DNA from: an uncultured Lachnospiraceae bacterium
Lineage (GTDB): Bacteria > Bacillota > Clostridia > Lachnospirales > Lachnospiraceae
DNA length: 64,000 nucleotides
Direction: 5' to 3'
NCBI GenBank assembly: GCA_947246015.1
Contig: CAMXQE010000012.1
Span: forward strand, 1-64,000
Each line of letters opens with the position of its first letter. The first letter of the stretch is position 1. Below the pieces are notes generated by a model, which did no database searches, had not been told where the DNA came from, and saw nothing but the letters and a program-made list of their open reading frames with translations. Of the stretch, positions 45,364-61,674 are shown piece after piece. Both the position numbers and the translations under genes were made by a program.

Positions 45364-46770
45364 CTATCTGAGTAAATCAATAATATCCCGCTTGCTCTGA
45401 TTTGCCTGGGCTAACATGGACTGGCCGGCCTGCTCCAGAATATTCACAATCGAATGCGCCACCATCCCTTTTGCCATATCCATATCCCGAATCCTTGATT
45501 CCGAGGCAGTCGTATTTTCTATCACATTATCTTCATTTGCAATGATATAGTCAAGACGGTTATGCTGCGCACCTATTAAAGCTCTCTGCCTGTTAATCGA
45601 TTCCATTGCAAGCCTGGTTTTATCAAGAGCTGCATAACAGCCTTCGACAGTCCTGACATCTATATCCAGTATCCCTAGAAGTTCTGCATTCATCCGTTCA
45701 ATTTCCAGGTCCATTTTCTCCCCATTTTCCGCTCCGTACTGTATGGGGAAAAGATTTGTAATCCGTGTCTCATTGGAACCGGTGACCTCTGCAAAATCTA
45801 CTTTTCCTGAATGCGGCCTTTTAGGGTCGGCATATACGGTCTGAATCTGGTTCAGCGCCCTATCCTCGGTGTTATAACCGGTTGCCGCCCGTATCACAAA
45901 TTCCTGGTCATTCTCTTTAATCAGATAATTTGAATGGCTTACCTGTATTCGGTTCCCCTGCGGTTTATAAGGCTTTGTTGCACTTGGTCCGGGCGGATTG
46001 TCGCATACGTAACTGAATATGGCATTCAATAGTTCACTACCTGTTGTCAGTCCATGAATATCAATCCTGTATTCATGGGTCGTAGTCCCAAACCGGTTCG
46101 AAACACTGCTCTGTGTGCCATCACCGTTAATAAACGTAAATTTAAAAGTCTCGGTACAATTTTCGCTGCACCCGAAAGAAAAAGACTTGTCGTACAGCTT
46201 TTTCACACTGGCTGCATTAATTGCGCTGAAATCCATGGTAGATGCCGGATAAAAAAGTCCTGAACTCTCATATACTTCAGACATGTATCCCAGCGGAGCC
46301 GAAGGCGATTTAATCAAATCCATACTAATTATTTCTTCTTTTGTAGCGCCTGCCAGATTAAAAATATGTATGCCATTAAAGGTGGTAGTCTCTCCGATTC
46401 TGGAAACTTCCAAAATGAGGTGGGATATCTCGTCCTGAATTGCCGCTCTTTCAAACGCTGACATCGTCCCGTTCGCTGCCTGTATGCTCAGTTCCGTAAT
46501 GCGGTTCATCATTTCATGCACTTCTGCCAGCGCACCATCCGCTACTTGACAGGCGGAAACACCGTCTTTCGTATTATCTACCCCACGGGAGAGCCCCCGT
46601 ATCTGCTTTCGCATCTTTTCTGAAATGGACAATCCTGCTGCATCGTCCGAAGCCCTGTTGATACGGTATCCCGAAGATAATTTTTCAGTTGTTCCAGCCT
46701 TACGTCCGGTAGTTATATTTAACTGCCGGTTTGCATTCATCGCATATAAATTGTGTGCAATCGAGCTCAT
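45364..46770 (-). CDS. hag: Flagellin
   Basis: 468 residues; start ATG 46770 with GGGGGA upstream. Conserved N-terminal D0/D1 region (NANRQLNITTGRKAGTTEKL, SGYRINRASDDAAGLSISEK) and C-terminal D1/D0 region (ENTTASESRIRDMDMAKG, ending SKRDIIDLLR). The central surface domain is long and unlike standard flagellins. At least five cysteines are present, including a CSENC pair, which is unusual for flagellin. It is exported by the flagellar type III system and is probably glycosylated by the convergent genes at 42.5-45.3 kb. An extended -10 at 46808-46816 precedes it; no sigma-28 element was seen. Confidence 0.95.
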   Translation of the reverse strand: MSSIAHNLYAMNANRQLNITTGRKAGTTEKLSSGYRINRASDDAAGLSISEKMRKQIRGLSRGVDNTKDGVSACQVADGALAEVHEMMNRITELSIQAANGTMSAFERAAIQDEISHLILEVSRIGETTTFNGIHIFNLAGATKEEIISMDLIKSPSAPLGYMSEVYESSGLFYPASTMDFSAINAASVKKLYDKSFSFGCSENCTETFKFTFINGDGTQSSVSNRFGTTTHEYRIDIHGLTTGSELLNAIFSYVCDNPPGPSATKPYKPQGNRIQVSHSNYLIKENDQEFVIRAATGYNTEDRALNQIQTVYADPKRPHSGKVDFAEVTGSNETRITNLFPIQYGAENGEKMDLEIERMNAELLGILDIDVRTVEGCYAALDKTRLAMESINRQRALIGAQHNRLDYIIANEDNVIENTTASESRIRDMDMAKGMVAHSIVNILEQAGQSMLAQANQSKRDIIDLLR

Positions 46771-46807
46771 TAAAATTCCCCCAAACATTAATAAATTCAA
46801 CTATTAT

Positions 46808-51968: not shown

Positions 51969-53024
51969 TTATTCGATAAAAATCTGTCCGCAATTAAGAA
52001 TCGCATCAAAAATTTCCCTGCGGAGCATGATTTCATCGGGAATCGCACCTTCATTGATATACTTTCTGATAATCGTGCCGCTTATTTCGACACGTTCAGT
52101 TTCGTAATGACTGCAGTTTTTCTCACTGACTACCATTCCGCATTTTTTACAAAAATACGGCTCATGTAAAAGAAGCAGTTCGATTCCTAAATCATATTTT
52201 CCGTAAAGCTCTCCTGCAAGCGCATGTGCATCATAAGCTCCGTAAAACCCGCCTACACCGGCATGATCCCTTCCGATGATAAAGTGCGTACATCCAAGAT
52301 TTCTCCTTATGATTGCATGGAACACCGCTTCTCTTGGTCCCGCATAACGCATCTGGGTCTTTAATCCCTCCATATATACTCTATTTCCCGGGTAAAATTC
52401 CTCTACCATTTTTTCATATGCCGCCACTACCGCTTCCTGTGTAAAATCTCCTTTTTTCTTCCATCCTATAATGGGGTTAATGAATAACCCGTCGCACACT
52501 TCCAATCCAATACGTTGTAAATGCTCATGCGCTTTATGAATCGGATTTCTTGTTTGGAAACCGACAATTGTTTTCCAGCCTTTATCCGCAAAAATTTTCT
52601 TTGTATTCTCCGGTCTTAATGCATCTTCTAAAAGCGTTTTGTCACGCAGCATTGTCTTTCCTCCCACTCTGAGCGGGGAACGAGCCTTTTCTTTCTTCAC
52701 TCCCGGATGCTTCTCATCCAGCGTACGGAATACCTTCTCAATGTCGGCATCCGTCATGCGGTATGTATCTTCCACTTCCAAATCAGCTACATGTTTCCCA
52801 TGAAAAGATAAATGCAGTGTTTGTCCGTTATTCAAAACTGTATCCTCCGGTATATCTAATGTAACCGGAATCGTAAACACCTGACCATCGGAAAGCAAAT
52901 ATGTATCCACAACACTTCTGAAATCAGCCTCGTTCATGAAACCTTTCAGCGGGTACAAAAGCCCGGTCTCTATATTGATGATATCCTGTAATGTTTCCTC
53001 GTCTATTTCTATGAAATCAGTCAT
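51969..53024 (-). CDS. sat: Sulfate adenylyltransferase (ATP sulfurylase)
   Basis: 351 residues of the homomeric Sat type. It makes adenosine 5'-phosphosulfate from ATP and sulfate. Start ATG 53024 (or the adjacent ATG 53027), with GGGGAGG upstream, overlapping the end of cysC by 8 bases. Key motifs: FQTRNPIHKAHEHLQ (QxRNPxHxxHE) and GRDHAGVGGFYGAYDA. A zinc-type Cys pair (FCKKCG) is also present. Coupling to APS kinase and the absence of APS reductase in the window point to PAPS made for sulfation rather than for sulfate reduction. Confidence 0.95.
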   Translation of the reverse strand: MTDFIEIDEETLQDIINIETGLLYPLKGFMNEADFRSVVDTYLLSDGQVFTIPVTLDIPEDTVLNNGQTLHLSFHGKHVADLEVEDTYRMTDADIEKVFRTLDEKHPGVKKEKARSPLRVGGKTMLRDKTLLEDALRPENTKKIFADKGWKTIVGFQTRNPIHKAHEHLQRIGLEVCDGLFINPIIGWKKKGDFTQEAVVAAYEKMVEEFYPGNRVYMEGLKTQMRYAGPREAVFHAIIRRNLGCTHFIIGRDHAGVGGFYGAYDAHALAGELYGKYDLGIELLLLHEPYFCKKCGMVVSEKNCSHYETERVEISGTIIRKYINEGAIPDEIMLRREIFDAILNCGQIFIE

Positions 53025-53535
53025 CATAATCCTCCCCATATTTTCCGGCTATATATCTTTTTATCATCTCAAAAGACTCTTCTTCCGTCATCTCATCCAC
53101 CTTTATGCAGAGGTCACAGTTTACCGGCTCATCAAAACGCTGTCCCAAACCAACGATATCCGTTTTCCCCATATTCTCTTTGTAGACACCCTTCACATCA
53201 TTTTTCATGCTGACCTGAATATCTTTATCCAAATATATCTCGTTGTAACCTGCAATCTTTCGGCGTGCCAAATCACGCAGATGCTGAAATGGGGAAATGT
53301 TGCAGATAATACCGATGATGTCATTCCTGTCTAAAAGATAAGCTCCCAATATAATGCGCTTGATATTCGCTTCTCTGTCTGCATCTGTATAACCTAAGTC
53401 GTTTTCGAATAGGTTGCGGACTTCATCTCCATCTAACAAATATGTTTTTAAACCCTTTTCCTTATAATATTTCTCAAGTTTCCTGCCAAGCGTGGTTTTG
53501 CCCGCGCCTGAAATACCAATTAACCATATAATCAT
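53017..53535 (-). CDS. cysC: Adenylyl-sulfate kinase (APS kinase)
   Basis: 172 residues. It phosphorylates APS to 3'-phosphoadenosine 5'-phosphosulfate, the donor used by sulfotransferases. The P-loop is GISGAGKTTLGRKL. DGDEVR, DREANIKRI and ISPF (APS-binding region) follow, and EIYLDKDIQV is also conserved. It is translationally coupled to sat and lies 30 bases downstream of a sulfotransferase-like gene, so donor synthesis and use are on the same strand and probably the same transcript. Confidence 0.94.
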   Translation of the reverse strand: MIIWLIGISGAGKTTLGRKLEKYYKEKGLKTYLLDGDEVRNLFENDLGYTDADREANIKRIILGAYLLDRNDIIGIICNISPFQHLRDLARRKIAGYNEIYLDKDIQVSMKNDVKGVYKENMGKTDIVGLGQRFDEPVNCDLCIKVDEMTEEESFEMIKRYIAGKYGEDYDD

Positions 53536-53565: not shown

Positions 53566-56090
53566 TCAAAGAATATATTCACTATAGATATCTACATTCA
53601 TAACTTCTGCAAAGCGTATACGCCAAAGCTGATTTCTAATCCCCCTGTTTACATTCCACATGCTCATTGCATCTCTCCCGATTGTACTCTCAGGAAAACT
53701 GTTTTCCCAACGCCAACCTTTCAAGAACATCTCCTGAAGTTCCCTTCTGGTAAAATTCAGACAGCTTACATATGGATAACCATATTTTTTTTGGTAAGGC
53801 GCTGATATTAAAGAAATGCGCATGCGGTCAAACACGGAAAAATATTCTTCATGCAAATTGTAGACCGGCTTTAGGTCAAATCCCGATACCGATACCCCCT
53901 TATTTTTCGGCTGTTTTCCATGACGAGTTGTCTCCAATAAAGAATCATGAAATGCTATGCCTAATTTATCACAAATCATCGTAAATTCATCTTTAGGGTG
54001 AAGTTTTAAATCTTCAAAACTTACCGTAAATTCATCCCAGTATTCATATTCTTCTCTATTATAATATACTTCCAAATCCATATCACATAATATACCAAAT
54101 GCCACCACCCAACTCCATTCTCCATGAAAACGAATGTTATCAATAAGAGACCCAGCAGTCATATATCTGTTCCTCACTGTAGCTAATGTATAACCATGTA
54201 CACTTTTATCACTCAACCAATGCGCACATTCCCTCACCCACTTGCGATTATAATTATGCATTTCCCAGTAAATGACCATATTCTTTAAATCTGCTGCTTC
54301 TCTTCCAAACATTGCTTCATATGCGACATGAAACATAACAAATAATTCCTGTGATGTGAAATTATTACCTAAACCTAATAGTTCCTCCATTTTCCGATTA
54401 AATATATTTCTTTTGGACTCTTCTGCAAACAAATCTCCTTCAATCCCGCTCTCACCCTCATACATCTTCCAAAAGGCTGGCAAAATATTCTCCGCTCTCT
54501 CCTCTGCCAAACGGACACAGATTAAATATAGGTGATTATTAAAAAAACCACCCTCTTGAATCATCATAATGCGAGGATGCCCCTCTAAACACTGTCTTAC
54601 CAGATTATTTCCACTACGCGCAGGAATCGCGCCTAATACTATACCCATAGGACGTAATTCTTCTTTTACATATTTTTCCGTATTCCTTTCTAAATGAATA
54701 TTTTTATATATATAAGAAAAATAATCCGTATAATTATGTATATGATACTCCTTTAACTTCTCAATATAAATCTCATTTTTATTCCTCGCCTCTTCTGATG
54801 TATGCTCCAAATAATCAGTATATTGAGGAACTACCAATAAACAAACATCTCTATCCGTTATTTCCGACCGCGATACTTGCGGCATTTGCAGCCTCTCTAA
54901 CTTCTCCGCATTTTCCTCCAGTATATCCCAATAACCTATCCTGTCAGTTCCATTCTGCTTCCACCATGCATAGAACCGACTACACAAATACGGATCTCCT
55001 GTCAAAATCAATTTATACCGCTTCAGTATATTTTCAAGGTTGTTCCATGGTACTTCTATATAATCCCTTAACAGAAAATACTGCCTATTCCTTTTATAAC
55101 CGGCATAATCATAGGCATCAACATTTCCGAACCCCCCCCGCTATGTTTGGACTCACATTCTATAAATACCGGAGCATTATACTGTTCTCTTATTTTGTCC
55201 AAACTCAATACCGGTCTTCCCAACAGCGTTCTCCCTGCACAGCCCTCATCCCATGCACAAAAAGCGCAGATATCAATACCGTTCGCCAACAGCAAATCAT
55301 ATCCGTCCTGAGCTTTGGTATTTTTTCCAACAATAATAATTTCATTCGTTTCTTTTAGTCTTTTTATTAAAGTATTAAAATCCCCATCCGCATCCGTTAT
55401 CCTACCCGCTTTGATGTTTGCCTCGTAAATCTCATCCACACATTCAAATTCCACAGAAGAACTTCTAGACTGCTCCTCTTCCAGACTACTACTCTTCGGA
55501 TGGACTCCTTCCGCCCATATTTCATAATTCCGATAATTCAGCATGGTATGTTTCTCATCCATGTACAACTCCTGCCACAGTTCCCCTTCCGTATTAACAG
55601 GAATCCCCTGTTGGGTGAGATATTCAGCCATTTCCCATGCTAACTCATTAAAGCCATGAATGGTGACGCCATCATATTCCGGTTTCAAATCCTTAAAACC
55701 CAATGCATCCTCACAGCTTTCCAGTTCATGCAACATCCTTATTTCCCTGTCAGCTTCTTCGTCCTGATATGCAAAGCAAATCAACTGCCCACTCCTACTT
55801 AATACCGGAAACACCACCACCTCTCCAAATATACTTTTATGTCCTATAAAATATTTATGACAGACTGCCCAAACCGTTTCATCCAAAACTGCATATTTCT
55901 TTTGTATACACTCCTGCAGAACCGGGCTTCCTAAAAGAGAAGTATAACTAATTATTCCAAGATATTTCTCTCCATCCATGACACACACCAGTTCATCTTT
56001 ATGTCCTTTTAGAAAATAATGAAGCAATTCACTTCTGGTAATGTCCCCATACGCCACACTATACACTTCTTTATCGCAAAACCGTATCAT
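53566..56090 (-). pseudogene. Large sulfotransferase-like protein, out of frame at a poly-G tract (putative phase OFF)
   Basis: ATG 56090 (AGGAG upstream) opens a frame that ends early at 55068. The second frame continues the same protein to 53566. Adding one G to the 8-G tract at 55132-55139 joins them into 841 codons, co-linear with the intact paralogue at 57477-59927. The N-terminal part has a CBS-like segment (about 17-55) and Rossmann-like stretches (VTIHGFNELAWEMAEYL; EIIIVGKNTKAQDGYDLLL). The C-terminal part has a sulfotransferase-type loop (GAIPARSGNNLVRQCLEGHP) and FEDLKLHPKDEFTMICDKLG. It lies immediately upstream of cysC. I regard it as reversible rather than dead. Confidence 0.8.
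55132..55139 (-). repeat. Poly-G tract (8 G) inside sulfotransferase-like gene
   Basis: Eight G on the coding strand at about codon 317. Eight gives a premature stop at 55068; nine, or six or twelve, would restore the frame to the 53566 stop. Confidence 0.95.
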
Positions 56091-56102
56091 ATATATTCTC
56101 CT

Positions 56103-57474
56103 TCACAATTTCAATGTCCTTCTTGTATTTCTACGTATTCCATCCAACTCCTCCATAGAAATCCCCATCATATCTGCAGTCCTTTTTCTCTTTTCATAAG
56201 TTGAAAAATTAATTCTATCCCATTCATATGCCCTCAAAATACTCATATCACGCGCTGTAAATTCATCCGTTTCTATCATACCATTTCTCCAGTTAATGTT
56301 TTCTGAATCAAATCCTTCAACCAATGCATTTTGCTCTTTTGCCATCTGGTATAGACGGGTATCTGGCAATGGAACTGCATTAAATAATTTTATGTAATCT
56401 GCTCCCAAATCTTCTGCAAATTTAATTGTCTGCCTTATCTCTTCCCAAGTCTCCCCTGGAAATCCTACAATAAAATTAGCAGCAACGTAAATATTTTCCT
56501 GCTTCAGCTTTTTAACCACTGCAACAGCCTTTTCCAATTTTAAAGGTTTTTGTATCACATCATGCAGTATCCGCTCCGTTCCTGATTCAACTGCAATATC
56601 TACATAAATACAACCACTCTTATGCATTAATTCAATCAGTTCATCATCAAGCAGAAAGGCTGCCGTTGCAATCATTTTCCATGGAATGTTGTATTTCTTT
56701 AACCCCTCAAAAATTCTGATTGCCCTTTTTCTGTCTGTAAGCAGATTATCATCATCGAAAATCAATGACTTTATATGGTAAGTATTAATAAGCCAATCAA
56801 TCTCCTTCAATACATTTTCTGCGCTTCGCGGCCTGAATTTCCTTCCGGCAATTTTATCCACTTGACAAAAACAGCAATTATAGGGGCATCCCCTTGATGT
56901 TAAAATCCTTGCATACGGATATGCCGCAGGTCCATCCAGACTTTTCCGTTCAGCCTTCATAGCATACTGAGAATAATCAATAAGATGATATGCCGGTAAT
57001 GGATATTTATCTAAATCGGTGATTAGTTCCGAATGTCCTCCTTCTATATCATATGTCCATACACCCTTTGGCATTGTTTTTCTTTCACCATTAATAAAAT
57101 GTATTAGCTGCGGCAACATTTCTTCACCTTCACCGCACATAACATAATCATAGTTCCTGTCCTTTACATTTTCCCGCGGATTGGCCGTAGCATGTACCCC
57201 TCCTAACCCGGTTATGATATTTGGGTCAATACTTTTTACAATTTTTGCCGCCATATGGCCTGTATACCCATAAAAATCCATCAAAACACTAATACCCACA
57301 AAATCAGGTTTTTCTTCCCTTATCCTGGCCTCAAACTGTTCTATACTTAAGCTTTCTGCCAGGGCATCAATCACTTTAATCTTATATCTGTTTTCCTGTT
57401 CCAAAACTGCTGCTAATAAACACAAATTATATGGTATAAAATGCCATAATATTCCCGCATTCCCCCCCCCCCAT
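56103..57474 (-). CDS. B12-binding-domain radical SAM protein, start separated from body by a poly-G tract (putative phase OFF)
   Basis: The cobalamin-like N-terminal domain (LCLLAAVLEQENRYKIKVID, GISVLMDFYGYTGH, TGLGGVHATANP) precedes the radical SAM domain with CPYNCCFC and FDDDNLL. The only well-placed start is ATG 57474, two bases after the previous stop, and the 11-G tract begins with its third base. Eleven G leads to a stop after 15 codons; ten or thirteen would give a continuous protein of about 456 residues. An open frame without a good start exists from TTG 57425. Such enzymes often methylate unreactive carbons. It lies between the two sulfotransferase-like genes. Confidence 0.82.
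57462..57472 (-). repeat. Poly-G tract (11 G) at the radical SAM start codon
   Basis: Eleven G beginning with the G of ATG 57474. Reading frame depends directly on tract length: 10 or 13 in frame, 11 out. Confidence 0.95.
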
Positions 57475-57476
57475 TC

Positions 57477-59927
57477 TTATTTTCCGCATCCCAATTGTAA
57501 TTCGGAATCACCAATACAATTTTCCGTATCATAACATACCTCCATTATTTCTATAAAACGAATCTGCCAAAGCATAAATCCAAAACGTTCCTTCCTATAC
57601 CAAATGTTTATTTCATCTTCCACTTTCTCCATCTCCGGCAATTTCTCCCATCGAAACTCTTTCAAAAACATTTCCTGCAGTTCCCGCCTGCTAAAATCCA
57701 AACATCTCACATATGAATATCCATATTTTTTTTGAAACGGTCCGTCAAGCAAACATAAACGCATCCTGTCAAAACTGCTAAAGTATTCCTCATATTGCTT
57801 ATATATGGGTTCCAACCCAAATCCTGTTGTATCCCCTACTATGTTCCGATAATACGCCGTCTGTCCATGACATGTCGTCTGCAGCATGACATGCTCAAAA
57901 GAAATCCCCAGCCATCTGCATAGCTCAGATAACTCTTTCTCCGGACTGCTTTTTAAATCCTCAAACCTTATAACCCGTTCCTTCCAATTTTTATATATCT
58001 TTCTCTTTTCCTGTCGCCAATCATGACTTCCCATACTGCCCCACAAAACATTCCAGCGGGCCCCTGCATAAAAATCTGTACGGATACCTGAACCGGCACG
58101 CATGTATGCATTGCGCACTGTACGCAGAAGAAATCCTTCTACATTTTCACTGCCCAGCCAGTATGACCATTCTCTTACTAATTCCCTGTCCCATTGATGC
58201 GGTTCCCAGTAAATAATGGTATTTTCCAAATCCAATATTTCTCTTCCGTACATGGACTCATAAGCAAGATGAAACATTACGAACAGTTCCTGCGAAGTGA
58301 AACAATCATTCAGCCCCAGCAGTTCCTCCATCTTCCGGTCAAACTTCTCTTTATCCGGAAAAAATGCCGTTACTGCTTTCTCTCCGGCCTCCCGTCTAAA
58401 TAAATGCCAGAATCCAGATAATATATCAGTAGCATGTTCTTCCGCCAAACGTATGCAAATGGAATATAAATTATTGTTAAAATAATTAACCTCCTGTATC
58501 AAAAGGATTTGCGGATGCCCTGAAAAACTATGCCTGACCAGTGTATTTCCACTATGAGGCGGTATCGCCCCAAGCAATATTCTGGCTGGACGCAATTCCC
58601 TTCTTCCATACTTTAATTCTTGGGTATCTAAATGAATACATTTAAACATATCAGAATAATAATCCGTATAGTCATGTATCCCATATGCATATAATTTTTC
58701 TACATATTCATTATGCCTATTTGCAGTCTCCGAAGTAATATGAAACTTACTGTCGTATTCCGGCACAATCAGCAGGCAGATACTTTCCATACCCCCCCCC
58801 ATTTCAATGCCATCTATTCTCGGCACTTGCAGTTTTTCTGTTCCCCATAAATTCTCCTTCAGGATATCCCAATATCCTATTCCCTCTGTTCTGAATCCAT
58901 GCTCCATCCACCATCGATAAAACCGGTTGCATAAGAACATATCTCCCGTCAGGATGATAGTTCGCCCTTGCATCATGCGGAAAATATTCATCAGATTATT
59001 TTCAGGCACTTCTAAATAATCCCTTAACAAAAAGTATCTCCTGTTTCTTTTGTACCCTTCATAATCATTCAAATCAACGGCTCCAAATCCCCATGCACTA
59101 TATTTCTCACCACACTCCAGAATGACAGCCTCCGAAAACCGTTCTTCAATCTCTATTTTTTTTAAAACTGGCTTGCCAAATAGACTTGTCCTTCCTTCCC
59201 GTCTTGCTTTTTCAGACAGAAACGCACATATATCCAAACCATTTGACAATAGCCAGTCATAAGCCTCCTGCGCTTTCGTACCGACTCCTCTTATAATAAT
59301 TTCCTTTTTGTTCTTCAGCTTTCTGATTAATTCATTGACATCTCCATCTGCATTTTTTATTTTTCCGGCTTTAATATTCGCCTCATAAATTTCATCAACA
59401 CATTCAAATTCAACCGAAGCGCTTCTCAGCCGTTCCTGATATACATCATTTCTCTTCTGGTGAACCCCTTCTGCCCATATCTCATAGGTCTGTCCATCCG
59501 CCACCTCTTGCGATTCCCATTTACCAATCTCATGCCAAAAATTCCCTTCTACATGAACCGTAATTCCCTGCTTTTGAAGATATATCGCAAAATAATAAGC
59601 AAGCTCATTGCATCCATGAATCAAAACCTCAGAATAACCCGGAGTACAATCATGGAAATTTAACGCCCCCTCACATTCTTCCAGTTCGTGCAGCATCCGT
59701 AATTCCCTATTGGCTTCCGCATCCTGCCACGCAAAACAAACAAGTTCATGTCTTTTATTCAATACTGGAAGTAAAACGATACTGCCGTCAGAAGATTTAT
59801 GTTTTGCAAAATACTTCCTTCCCTCTTCCCATACCTTTTCATCTAAAAATACATATTCCTTTTGCATATCCTCTTTTTGGCTTTTATTTTGCGTCTCAAA
59901 AATCTTTTTACTGCAAAAACGTATCAT
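57477..59927 (-). CDS. Large sulfotransferase-like protein, intact paralogue (putative phase ON)
   Basis: 816 residues; start ATG 59927, with GGGAGG upstream, aligning with the paralogue's MIRFC start. The N-terminal half has Rossmann-like stretches (VLIHGCNELAYYFAIYL; EIIIRGVGTKAQEAYDWLL) and VEFECVDEIYEANIKAG shared with the paralogue. The C-terminal half has a PAPS-binding-type loop (GAIPPHSGNTLVRHSFSGHP), VRNAYMRAGS resembling the 3'-phosphate site, and VIRFEDLKSSPEKELSELC. It carries a 9-G tract (58792-58800, about residues 375-378) in frame. It is probably a cytoplasmic sulfotransferase using PAPS from cysC/sat. The acceptor is unknown. Confidence 0.82.
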   Translation of the reverse strand: MIRFCSKKIFETQNKSQKEDMQKEYVFLDEKVWEEGRKYFAKHKSSDGSIVLLPVLNKRHELVCFAWQDAEANRELRMLHELEECEGALNFHDCTPGYSEVLIHGCNELAYYFAIYLQKQGITVHVEGNFWHEIGKWESQEVADGQTYEIWAEGVHQKRNDVYQERLRSASVEFECVDEIYEANIKAGKIKNADGDVNELIRKLKNKKEIIIRGVGTKAQEAYDWLLSNGLDICAFLSEKARREGRTSLFGKPVLKKIEIEERFSEAVILECGEKYSAWGFGAVDLNDYEGYKRNRRYFLLRDYLEVPENNLMNIFRMMQGRTIILTGDMFLCNRFYRWWMEHGFRTEGIGYWDILKENLWGTEKLQVPRIDGIEMGGGMESICLLIVPEYDSKFHITSETANRHNEYVEKLYAYGIHDYTDYYSDMFKCIHLDTQELKYGRRELRPARILLGAIPPHSGNTLVRHSFSGHPQILLIQEVNYFNNNLYSICIRLAEEHATDILSGFWHLFRREAGEKAVTAFFPDKEKFDRKMEELLGLNDCFTSQELFVMFHLAYESMYGREILDLENTIIYWEPHQWDRELVREWSYWLGSENVEGFLLRTVRNAYMRAGSGIRTDFYAGARWNVLWGSMGSHDWRQEKRKIYKNWKERVIRFEDLKSSPEKELSELCRWLGISFEHVMLQTTCHGQTAYYRNIVGDTTGFGLEPIYKQYEEYFSSFDRMRLCLLDGPFQKKYGYSYVRCLDFSRRELQEMFLKEFRWEKLPEMEKVEDEINIWYRKERFGFMLWQIRFIEIMEVCYDTENCIGDSELQLGCGK
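58792..58800 (-). repeat. Poly-G tract (9 G) inside intact sulfotransferase-like gene
   Basis: Nine G encode part of EMGGGMES, in frame. The tract is at a different place from that in the paralogue, so the two tracts arose separately. Confidence 0.95.
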
Positions 59928-59950
59928 TTTACTTCCATCCTCCCAATTAT

Positions 59951-60427
59951 TTATACCTGATATAATATATCTTCCAACGAAAGAATCGGACAATCCATCT
60001 TAGCCCCCAAAGCTTCCTCAATTTCATCAAAGAAAGTAATAGAAGTAACCACAACTGCATCTACTTCCTCTAAATCATCATCCGGTGTAACCATCAAAAA
60101 ATCCGCATATATTTTATCCGCATTTTTATCAATACCATATTTTATCTCCACGCCACTTCCCTGTAGTTCTTCTGCCAAGGTTTCCCCTGCATAATGCATA
60201 CCATATATAGCAATTTTCTTATATCCTTCCTGTTCAAAATAGGAAGCCAGATTCTTCCCCTCCTGCTTTACTTTTACCCATTGGTTCATCATTAAAAACA
60301 GCGCCAGATGTTTATCCGATTTTTTATGATTCTCCTTCACTTTACTGCCCAGCATCCCACTTACTGCTGTTACGCCTGCTGCTGCTCCTCCTATTGCCGA
60401 TATTATCCCTATCATTCCTTTTCGCAT
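59951..60427 (-). CDS. Small Rossmann-like protein with N-terminal membrane segment
   Basis: 158 residues. A hydrophobic Gly/Ala-rich N-terminus (about 5-27) could be a membrane anchor. The rest has a nucleotide-binding-like pattern: KIAIYGMHYAGETLAEELQG, then a beta-alpha unit ending YGIDKNA, and VTPDDDLEEVDAVVVTSI. It resembles the Rossmann-like stretches at the N-termini of the two sulfotransferase-like proteins downstream. Comparable proteins appear in capsule loci; no activity is known to me. The gene ends 24 bases before the sulfotransferase ATG. Confidence 0.65.
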   Translation of the reverse strand: MRKGMIGIISAIGGAAAGVTAVSGMLGSKVKENHKKSDKHLALFLMMNQWVKVKQEGKNLASYFEQEGYKKIAIYGMHYAGETLAEELQGSGVEIKYGIDKNADKIYADFLMVTPDDDLEEVDAVVVTSITFFDEIEEALGAKMDCPILSLEDILYQV

Positions 60428-60465
60428 AACTATCTTCTCCTTTCAAAATTGCATTTTCTTCCAGT

Positions 60466-61674
60466 TTATTCGCTTTTATCTGCTTTTAAGCTATTCCAAA
60501 CTACATGCCCTATCCCTTTATTCTCTCTAATTCTACTTTTTCTATCATCCTCCTCTACAATATTTATAAAATCATCTAAAGTTCCAAAATCATCACTTTC
60601 AATACACGTTTCCTTTCCTGTAAGATTTTCTTTCATAACTTCATACAAATAGAAAACCTCTTTTTCTGACACCAATAATTCCCAACCAAATATATGCTTA
60701 GTACTCTTATCATAAACTAACAACATATTACCCGCTTGTGGATATAACAAAACTTTATCTTTATATATACTATACTTCGCATGCACTGGCCAACCGAGAA
60801 ACCGATTATCAACCAGCCGGAACCCCTTCGGATATTCAATTGGATTGCCAATTGTTTTCCTATTTTTATCAATCCTCAGTATATTCTTTAAGAAAAGATT
60901 TAATACTAAAATCTCATCCTCCAGAAAAATCAACTTTACATAAGGAATCTGCCCTGCATACTTTCTATCTCTCCACTCTGCACTTTCGTTGGTATATACT
61001 TGCAATGTATCATTTTCCATATCCCATTCATAAATATTGGTTGACTCTACTGGCAATATCCAATAATGATTTCCATCAAAACACATGGAAAACGGTTTTA
61101 TCCCTTCTAAAGTTTTAGAAAAAACAATCTGTTTTGTATCCAAATTTACATTTATAAATGTGCTGCCGCCATATCTGCCAATCAATACACAGTCCTTATT
61201 ATCATAAATTATAAGATTGCCTGAACAAAAAAAATCCGGCTCAAACAAAGAACTCAATTCTTTGTCCTTTTTTATCTGTTGGCTATGCAGATTAAATACA
61301 TATACTCCCTTTCCCAGTTCGTGTGGAAATATATATATATCATTTTTCCATTTTACTATACCCGATATATTTACAAAACCAGTATCATAATCAGGGAAAG
61401 GAATTATTTGTTCTTGCTTTTTTATAAGATCATACTTCATAATAGCATTAGCATCATTAGGGAAAAAATAAATAGCATTATTATAAGCCACCCCCCCATT
61501 TAATGACAGCCTCCCCGCATTGCTTTCCCTGATAGAAAACTTATGTACAAAATGGATTGTCATATCTTCTATATCTAAACAGAAAATCCCATTAAATGCT
61601 ATATTAAAGAAATATATCCTATTTTCTATCTGACAAATGCTGCCAACCTTTAAATGCGTCTTTACATCTTTCAT
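60466..61674 (-). CDS. Beta-propeller-like protein of unknown function
   Basis: 402 residues with repeated beta-strand motifs about 45-50 residues apart (YFFNIAFNGIFCLDIE, YFFPNDANAIMKYDL, YIFPHELGKGVYVFNL, WILPVESTNIYEWDM, LLYPQAGNMLLVYD), as in a seven-bladed propeller. No signal peptide, so probably cytoplasmic. The last 60 residues are acidic/basic and non-repetitive. A 7-G tract (61491-61497) encodes Gly-Gly-Val in frame. It overlaps the preceding glycosyltransferase gene by 4 bases (ATGA), so the two are translationally coupled. Confidence 0.7.
   Translation of the reverse strand: MKDVKTHLKVGSICQIENRIYFFNIAFNGIFCLDIEDMTIHFVHKFSIRESNAGRLSLNGGVAYNNAIYFFPNDANAIMKYDLIKKQEQIIPFPDYDTGFVNISGIVKWKNDIYIFPHELGKGVYVFNLHSQQIKKDKELSSLFEPDFFCSGNLIIYDNKDCVLIGRYGGSTFINVNLDTKQIVFSKTLEGIKPFSMCFDGNHYWILPVESTNIYEWDMENDTLQVYTNESAEWRDRKYAGQIPYVKLIFLEDEILVLNLFLKNILRIDKNRKTIGNPIEYPKGFRLVDNRFLGWPVHAKYSIYKDKVLLYPQAGNMLLVYDKSTKHIFGWELLVSEKEVFYLYEVMKENLTGKETCIESDDFGTLDDFINIVEEDDRKSRIRENKGIGHVVWNSLKADKSE
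61491..61497 (-). repeat. Poly-G tract (7 G) in propeller gene
   Basis: Seven G at about codons 59-61 (LNGGVAYN), in frame at this length. Confidence 0.9.

Follow-up and report, generated by a model that had tools for sequence, protein, structure and literature searches.

The 64,000-base stretch analysed here (the window; contig CAMXQE010000012.1 of an uncultured Lachnospiraceae bacterium) carries G runs of 8, 11, 9 and 7 bases in four genes, which we call D, C, B and A (Table 1), and we put the probability that the 8-, 11- and 9-G runs are slipped-strand contingency (phase-variation) tracts at roughly 0.85. Indirect but concordant evidence favours this reading: an excess of runs of at least nine, a bias of G to the coding strand, reading frames split by G tracts and only seldom by A/T tracts, an enrichment of glycan-modifying genes, and homologues that have only 3-6 G at the tract sites. 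An initial annotation of this DNA had proposed that all four runs form a local cluster of contingency genes. Length spectrum, strand bias, splits and gene families bear this out for the 8-, 11- and 9-G runs, while the 7-G run resembles background, and the locus is not a self-contained cluster: it belongs to a multi-locus poly-G set that extends across surface-glycan genes of the genome and of many species of the genus.

In the mechanism that we propose, a G run would gain or lose units during replication by slipped-strand mispairing, and each such change would shift the downstream frame, so that a cell would stochastically make the full-length enzyme or not. The switched enzymes would be the sulfotransferase-like paralogues D (off) and B (on) and the B12-binding radical-SAM enzyme C (off in this assembly). 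With such switching, a population would display mixed sulfated or otherwise modified forms of its surface glycan. The statistics of the tracts, their strand bias, the state of each frame, the families of the genes and the sites in other species were observed directly; from them we infer slippage in the living population, its reversibility, the sulfation of a surface structure and a benefit, which may lie in the evasion of phage or immunity.

Long G runs in the genome, the genus and the family

On the minus strand, which is the coding one, the four runs are G; on the plus strand they read as C. They are the longest G/C runs in the window, which contains no further run of seven or more, the next longest being five runs of 6. 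Lengths, positions and the lack of other runs are as initially annotated, and so is the division into two tracts out of frame at their present length (8-G and 11-G) and two in frame (9-G and 7-G). Chance was assessed through run-length spectra, in which the genus-wide ratio of runs of 8 to runs of 7 gives a geometric expectation for longer runs. The source assembly (G000) spans 3.93 Mb in 96 contigs at 83.75% completeness; among its G/C runs, 19 are exactly 7 long, three are exactly 8 and 12 are at least 9. Two of these 12, an 18-G run (G000:C19:73070) and a 13-G run (G000:C30:45558), lie in G-rich sequence 40 and 29 bases from contig ends; they are probably sequencing artefacts and were rejected as contingency tracts. 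The remaining 10 compare with 0.27-0.38 expected from the genus ratio (P 1e-11) and with 1.0 expected under a generous ratio (P 1e-7), a count that still includes one run on contig C37, which is poorly placed: it lies in GC-rich sequence and faces a long frame. The C37 runs were also rejected as contingency tracts.

Given the 13 runs of at least 8 in the genome, finding three of them within 3,669 bases of the window has a P of 3e-7, or about 3e-4 after a rough correction for scanning. Twenty control regions (300 kb; 15 from G015 and five from G011) contain no G/C run of at least 8. By these tests the 8-, 11- and 9-G runs as a class are longer and commoner than chance allows; the 7-G run, as one of 19 in the genome, is not exceptional. 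The same data bear on the notion that the tracts are chance G runs in glycine-rich motifs encoded by GGG codons. Several tracts do fall within glycine motifs when inspected by eye (GCGGG in methyltransferases, W-G in MBOAT proteins), and this explanation likely holds for the gene A 7-G run and the GC-rich runs on C37. For the tracts in general it is very improbable: the length spectrum shows a roughly tenfold excess, split genes are as many as in-frame ones with no glycine motif completed when split, and homologues have 3-6 G at the sites compared.

Across the genus, sampled as 16 genomes with one genome per species, runs of exactly 7 number 779, those of exactly 8 number 88 and those of at least 9 number 116, against a geometric expectation of 11.2 for the last class; the 116 include both contig-end runs of the source genome, artefacts of this kind having been judged for the source genome only. 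The excess is clear in eight of the 16 (G000, G002, G003, G004, G005, G012, G013 and G015), and the richer genomes hold 9-24 tracts of at least 9 each. Sequence was retrieved around 110 of the 116 runs and around ten runs of 8, giving 120 tracts. Among the 110, 81 have 9 G, 20 have 10 G and five have 11 G.

The 21 other genera of the family that were sampled contain 313 runs of 7, 45 of 8 and 57 of at least 9, compared with 7.6 expected for the longest class. Since 35 of the 57 fall in G027, G028 and G031, the phenomenon is not limited to one genus. G027 has eight tracts; at L228:4034, L230:3981, L230:6959 and L233:4035, two genes are split and two are in frame, and by eye one of the split genes reads as family-2 glycosyltransferase-like and one of the in-frame genes as acyltransferase-like, which suggests that other genera share the system. 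The highest count of G runs of at least 9 among 98 genomes counted, 95, was found in G076, a member of the same order.

Strand bias and the breaking of reading frames

Where runs of at least 9 could be placed in genes, G lies on the coding strand in 52 and C in four, a count that omits 34 rows classed as ‘other’ and 16 classed as ‘weak’. A single frame rule was then applied to all homopolymers in the same regions, which had been chosen because they contain long G runs. Of the coding G runs of at least 8, 22 are in frame (ON), 21 are split between two frames and 14 are truncated, whereas A/T runs of at least 8 are in frame in 66, split in three and truncated in 14 (Fisher 3e-8 without the truncated class, 1e-6 with it counted as off). 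The truncated class was kept out of the main test because some of its members may be natural C-termini; the outcome is unchanged if they are counted. Runs of 7 G in these regions are in frame in 11 cases, split in one and truncated in one (p 0.018). The 22 ON and 21 split states were seen across different loci, each species being represented by one genome. Under a looser rule, 35 of the 120 tracts are ON and 22 are split; 16 are truncated, 13 fall at 5′ ends, and the other 34 are intergenic or unclear.

The contrast in splits between G and A/T runs argues against both a generic homopolymer error and decay. Had assembly or sequencing error in G homopolymers produced the frame breaks, the genes would be intact and the breaks artefactual. 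The source genome is indeed a draft, its 18- and 13-G runs near contig ends look artefactual, and a few runs in relatives also lie near contig ends. Error, however, would not concentrate surplus runs of 9-10 G in glycan genes and on their coding strand, and for A/T runs these assemblies have three splits against 66 intact frames. The excess, moreover, is clear in half of the genus genomes and weak in three more, and the clear cases include a seven-contig assembly (G015). We therefore regard error as unlikely.

Nor is it at all probable that D and C are plain pseudogenes, frameshifted once and now decaying, although both are off in the assembly. Gene D is a paralogue of gene B whose two parts lie in different frames on either side of the 8-G tract, the 5′ part with 54% identity to gene B residues 40-302 and the 3′ part with 51% identity to residues 300-821. 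Past the tract, no further stop occurs in 521 codons of D or in 452 codons of C. The 3′ half of D is 47-56% identical to gene B and two intact homologues, with a proportion of nonsynonymous differences (pN) of 0.27-0.35 and of synonymous differences (pS) of 0.76-0.78, so any break would be very recent at most. Breaks at G tracts also recur in many genes and species. In gene C, the 11-G tract stands 20 codons after the likely start, and the main part, in a frame other than that of the start, matches the Pfam domains B12-binding (3.9e-18, profile positions 19-120 of 121) and Radical_SAM (1.1e-26); its homologues in the genus are three distant matches at 30-33% identity.

Genes that carry tracts

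Families are given here among the matches listed, which are the first 25 of 76 for tract genes and the first 25 of 207 for controls. The 105 tract-gene pieces include nine acyltransferase-3 proteins and eight methyltransferases, three each of NAD-dependent epimerases, hexapeptide transferases, PMT_2 and DUF6056, and two each of MBOAT, WcbI, radical SAM, polysaccharide deacetylase and GHKL. Of 105 control open reading frames (ORFs) picked, 104 were used, and the families represented at least twice among them are response regulators, GGDEF, tRNA synthetase, LGT, resolvase, histidine kinase and others of that sort; none of the glycan-modifying families of the tract genes is among them. Genes for surface structures are thus enriched among tract genes, with exceptions. 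Elsewhere in the source genome, a 10-G run splits an MBOAT O-acyltransferase, a 9-G run splits a multi-span protein that has no Pfam match, and two further ORFs have tracts, one for an epimerase after codon 305 and one for a family-2 glycosyltransferase after codon 204.

A unit gained or lost would alter the frame at the window tracts, and the spacing of a promoter at one tract on contig C48. This 9-G run (L015:6715-6723; G000:C48:17714) fills the 15-base spacer of a TTGACA/TAAAAT pair upstream of a leucine-rich-repeat (LRR)-type protein (L015:6754-8856), which is probably secreted, and is a candidate, judged from its sequence, for promoter-spacer phase variation. A scan of 116 tracts for promoter spacers gave four sites with at most two mismatches against 1.2 at random positions; one of the four, that on C48, has a single mismatch, for which random positions give 0.0. 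As random positions yield 1.2 sites by themselves, only the C48 site stands out. Separately, a 10-G run (L011:6563-6572; G000:C20:23562) lies about 10 bases upstream of an ATG and overlaps the ribosome-binding region.

A fixed mixture of proteins could also arise from unchanged DNA if transcription slipped in a programmed way at G9 or ribosomes shifted frame there, and a length peak at exactly 9 would suit this. RNA polymerase slips less readily on G runs than on A/T runs. Tracts of 8, 10 and 11 are also present. The promoter-spacer tract would need a change at the DNA level, and transcriptional slippage leaves the enrichment of surface genes unexplained. Slippage at a run of nine is known in a Firmicute element, IS1447 (A9; PMC6211511), but the slippage described in that paper takes place at A or T runs. 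We accord this explanation very little probability. Each of the four alternatives, namely assembly error, decay, transcriptional slippage and chance glycine codons, fails at least one control.

Tract sites in homologues

Long tracts were compared with the corresponding sites in related genes. At the gene D site, the longest G run in paralogue B and six homologues is 4; at the gene B site, it is 3-4 in six homologues. The MBOAT site motif was located in 14 of 30 loci searched, and the G012 site was read directly from its sequence: 13 homologues with 4-6 G have open frames, whereas the frames of the two tract-bearing ones, in G000 (10 G) and G012 (9 G), both stop at the tract. Going by these alignments, the long tracts at the gene B, gene D and MBOAT sites are derived. 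Tract locations differ between genes B and D, as they do between G002 and G003 genes with common acyltransferase peptides.

A scan of named genomes with the single gene B sequence gave no match, and an alignment of three gene B homologues as query found five loci in them. A family-wide search with gene B, using one genome for each of 299 genera, returned its own genome and partial matches in three. G015, Lachnospiraceae bacterium 28-4, which we take to be a cultured mouse isolate, has 14 tracts. The surroundings of its gene B homologue include 10 G in a WcbI-like gene and 9 G where a radical-SAM gene ends; a gene without a Pfam match, 16 kb from that region, has 9 G as well. In the metagenome-assembled genome S10_Bin4, a 9-G run splits a radical-SAM gene that adjoins gene B homologues.

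Several observations weigh against the contingency reading. All length data come from one assembly per species, and the source genome is the incomplete draft described above. The length peak at 9 is tight, and apparently orthologous tracts in G015 and G004 both have 9 G. The excess of runs of at least 9 is weak in G001, G010 and G011 and absent in five of the 16 genus genomes (G006-G009 and G014), and no run reaches 7 in the syntenic part of S10_Bin3 (G004) that L170 covers. Some tract genes are non-glycan, for example a transporter permease and a periplasmic binding protein, many tract-gene pieces have no Pfam match, and the intergenic or unclear class makes up 34 of the 120 tracts. Finally, MutS1 is intact in this genome, so that no repair defect explains instability, which would have to come from tract length alone. 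The apparently orthologous 9-G tracts of G015 and G004 lie near the end of a sensor-kinase-like gene, at L065:6231 (G015:C1:597230) and in L132 (G004:C53:18310); this tract may be conserved and stable.

Relation to known phase-variable systems

Poly-G switching is familiar from Campylobacter and similar pathogens. In the Campylobacter phasome analysed with PhasomeIt, poly-G lengths peak at 9 (53%) and 10 (26%) G, 77% of tracts are in ORFs, strains have 5 to 81 putative phase-variable genes at a 7-G cut-off, and length variation has been shown (PMC6321876). The set described here is similar in its 9-10 G peak, its tracts inside ORFs, its many loci and its mixture of on and off states across loci; it differs in belonging to Lachnospiraceae, in the presence of MutS1 and in being known from assemblies alone. 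In C. jejuni, Cj1295, a homopolymeric-tract gene in a glycosylation locus, alters the flagellin glycan (PMC3068675); the glycan-modification setting is alike, whereas the enzyme here is a different one. An intragenic G tract in a gut commensal is also found in the pilus switch of Bifidobacterium breve, where replication slippage was shown by maximum depth sequencing and is modulated in mice (PMC9187656), but B. breve is not a Firmicute, and its switch acts on pilus genes rather than glycan-modifying enzymes. Frame switching in Firmicutes is represented in a survey of prokaryotic homopolymeric tracts by swrA of B. subtilis and inlA of L. monocytogenes (PMC2831843); unlike the tracts here, the examples in that survey are mainly poly-A/T, in single genes and toward the 5′ end.

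The initial annotation took the system to be undescribed in Lachnospiraceae, and in keeping with this we found no report of poly-G phase variation in the family in the open-licence PubMed Central literature, as covered by listings and the starts of abstracts. In the same literature, a single paper mentions phase variation, Lachnospiraceae and slipped-strand mispairing together, the last two in connection with a Campylobacter gene and with chicken microbiota. The mechanism is thus known and the lineage apparently undescribed. We think it reasonably probable, with less confidence than for the tracts themselves, that a Campylobacter-like multi-locus phasome arose in commensal Lachnospiraceae (in this genus and at least partly in others, such as that of G027), with both translational and promoter-spacer tracts, and that it stochastically diversifies how the glycan of the cell surface or flagella is sulfated, acylated and methylated in gut anaerobes with MutS still present. 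If so, the surface-glycan identity of these bacteria would be a shifting mixture, which would matter for their susceptibility to phage, for the binding of antibodies and for the tracking of strains. Some of the ‘broken’ glycan genes in these genomes would then be switched-off ones.

The window locus and its possible link to sulfation

The initial annotation spoke of a sulfation locus. In its favour, genes for ATP sulfurylase and adenosine 5′-phosphosulfate (APS) kinase, which make the sulfate donor 3′-phosphoadenosine 5′-phosphosulfate (PAPS), adjoin gene D, a supporting though not strictly defining feature. The matches to sulfotransferase families are weak, with Sulfotransfer_3 found in gene D at 7e-4 and in gene B at 9e-4, neither of which reaches the curated cut-off. 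In a set of seven B-type proteins, Sulfotransfer_3 is matched by two and Sulfotransfer_5 by three at 0.1 or better. A profile of the seven sequences matches sulfotransferase domains in the PDB (4gox and CurM, 4gbm) at 0.001 and 0.009, mostly over one C-terminal stretch. The 5′ PAPS loop of sulfotransferases has a motif of the R-S-G-T-T type; (H/Y)SGN..LVR..LAGHP aligns to SPRSGSTLLRVMLAGHP of 4gox in the right order, with the 5′-loop stretch by itself not significant. Genes B and D are, on these profile matches, likely sulfotransferase-like.

Table 1. Tracts and genes of the window locus (window coordinates).
Feature	Position	Strand	Remarks
8-G tract	55132..55139	-	Gene D; out of frame at present length
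11-G tract	57462..57472	-	Gene C; out of frame at present length
9-G tract	58792..58800	-	Gene B; in frame; poorly conserved stretch
7-G tract	61491..61497	-	Gene A; in frame; background-like
Gene D, 5′ part	55068..56090	-	340-codon ORF; stop soon after 8-G tract
Gene D, 3′ part	53566..55140	-	Likely sulfotransferase-like; other frame, open 521 codons from tract
Gene C as now read	57413..57532	-	GGAGG 57543-57539, ATG 57532-57530, 39 codons, stop 57415-57413
Gene C, main part	56103..57425	-	B12-binding radical-SAM enzyme (Pfam); frame differs from start frame
Gene B	57477..59993	-	Likely sulfotransferase-like; 838 aa as listed; likelier ATG at 59927
Gene A	60466..61674	-	402 aa; weak OLF match (0.005), below cut-off
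APS kinase	53017..53535	-	PAPS synthesis; Pfam 1.1e-34
ATP sulfurylase	51969..53039	-	PAPS synthesis; Pfam 3.8e-77

Gene B (window 57480-59930) lacks about 57 residues that aligned homologues have in the N-terminal region. The OLF match of gene A suggests that its product is perhaps a beta-propeller. Judged by eye from translations, the surroundings of the locus are rich in glycan genes, and a flagellin-like gene lies at 45364-46800.

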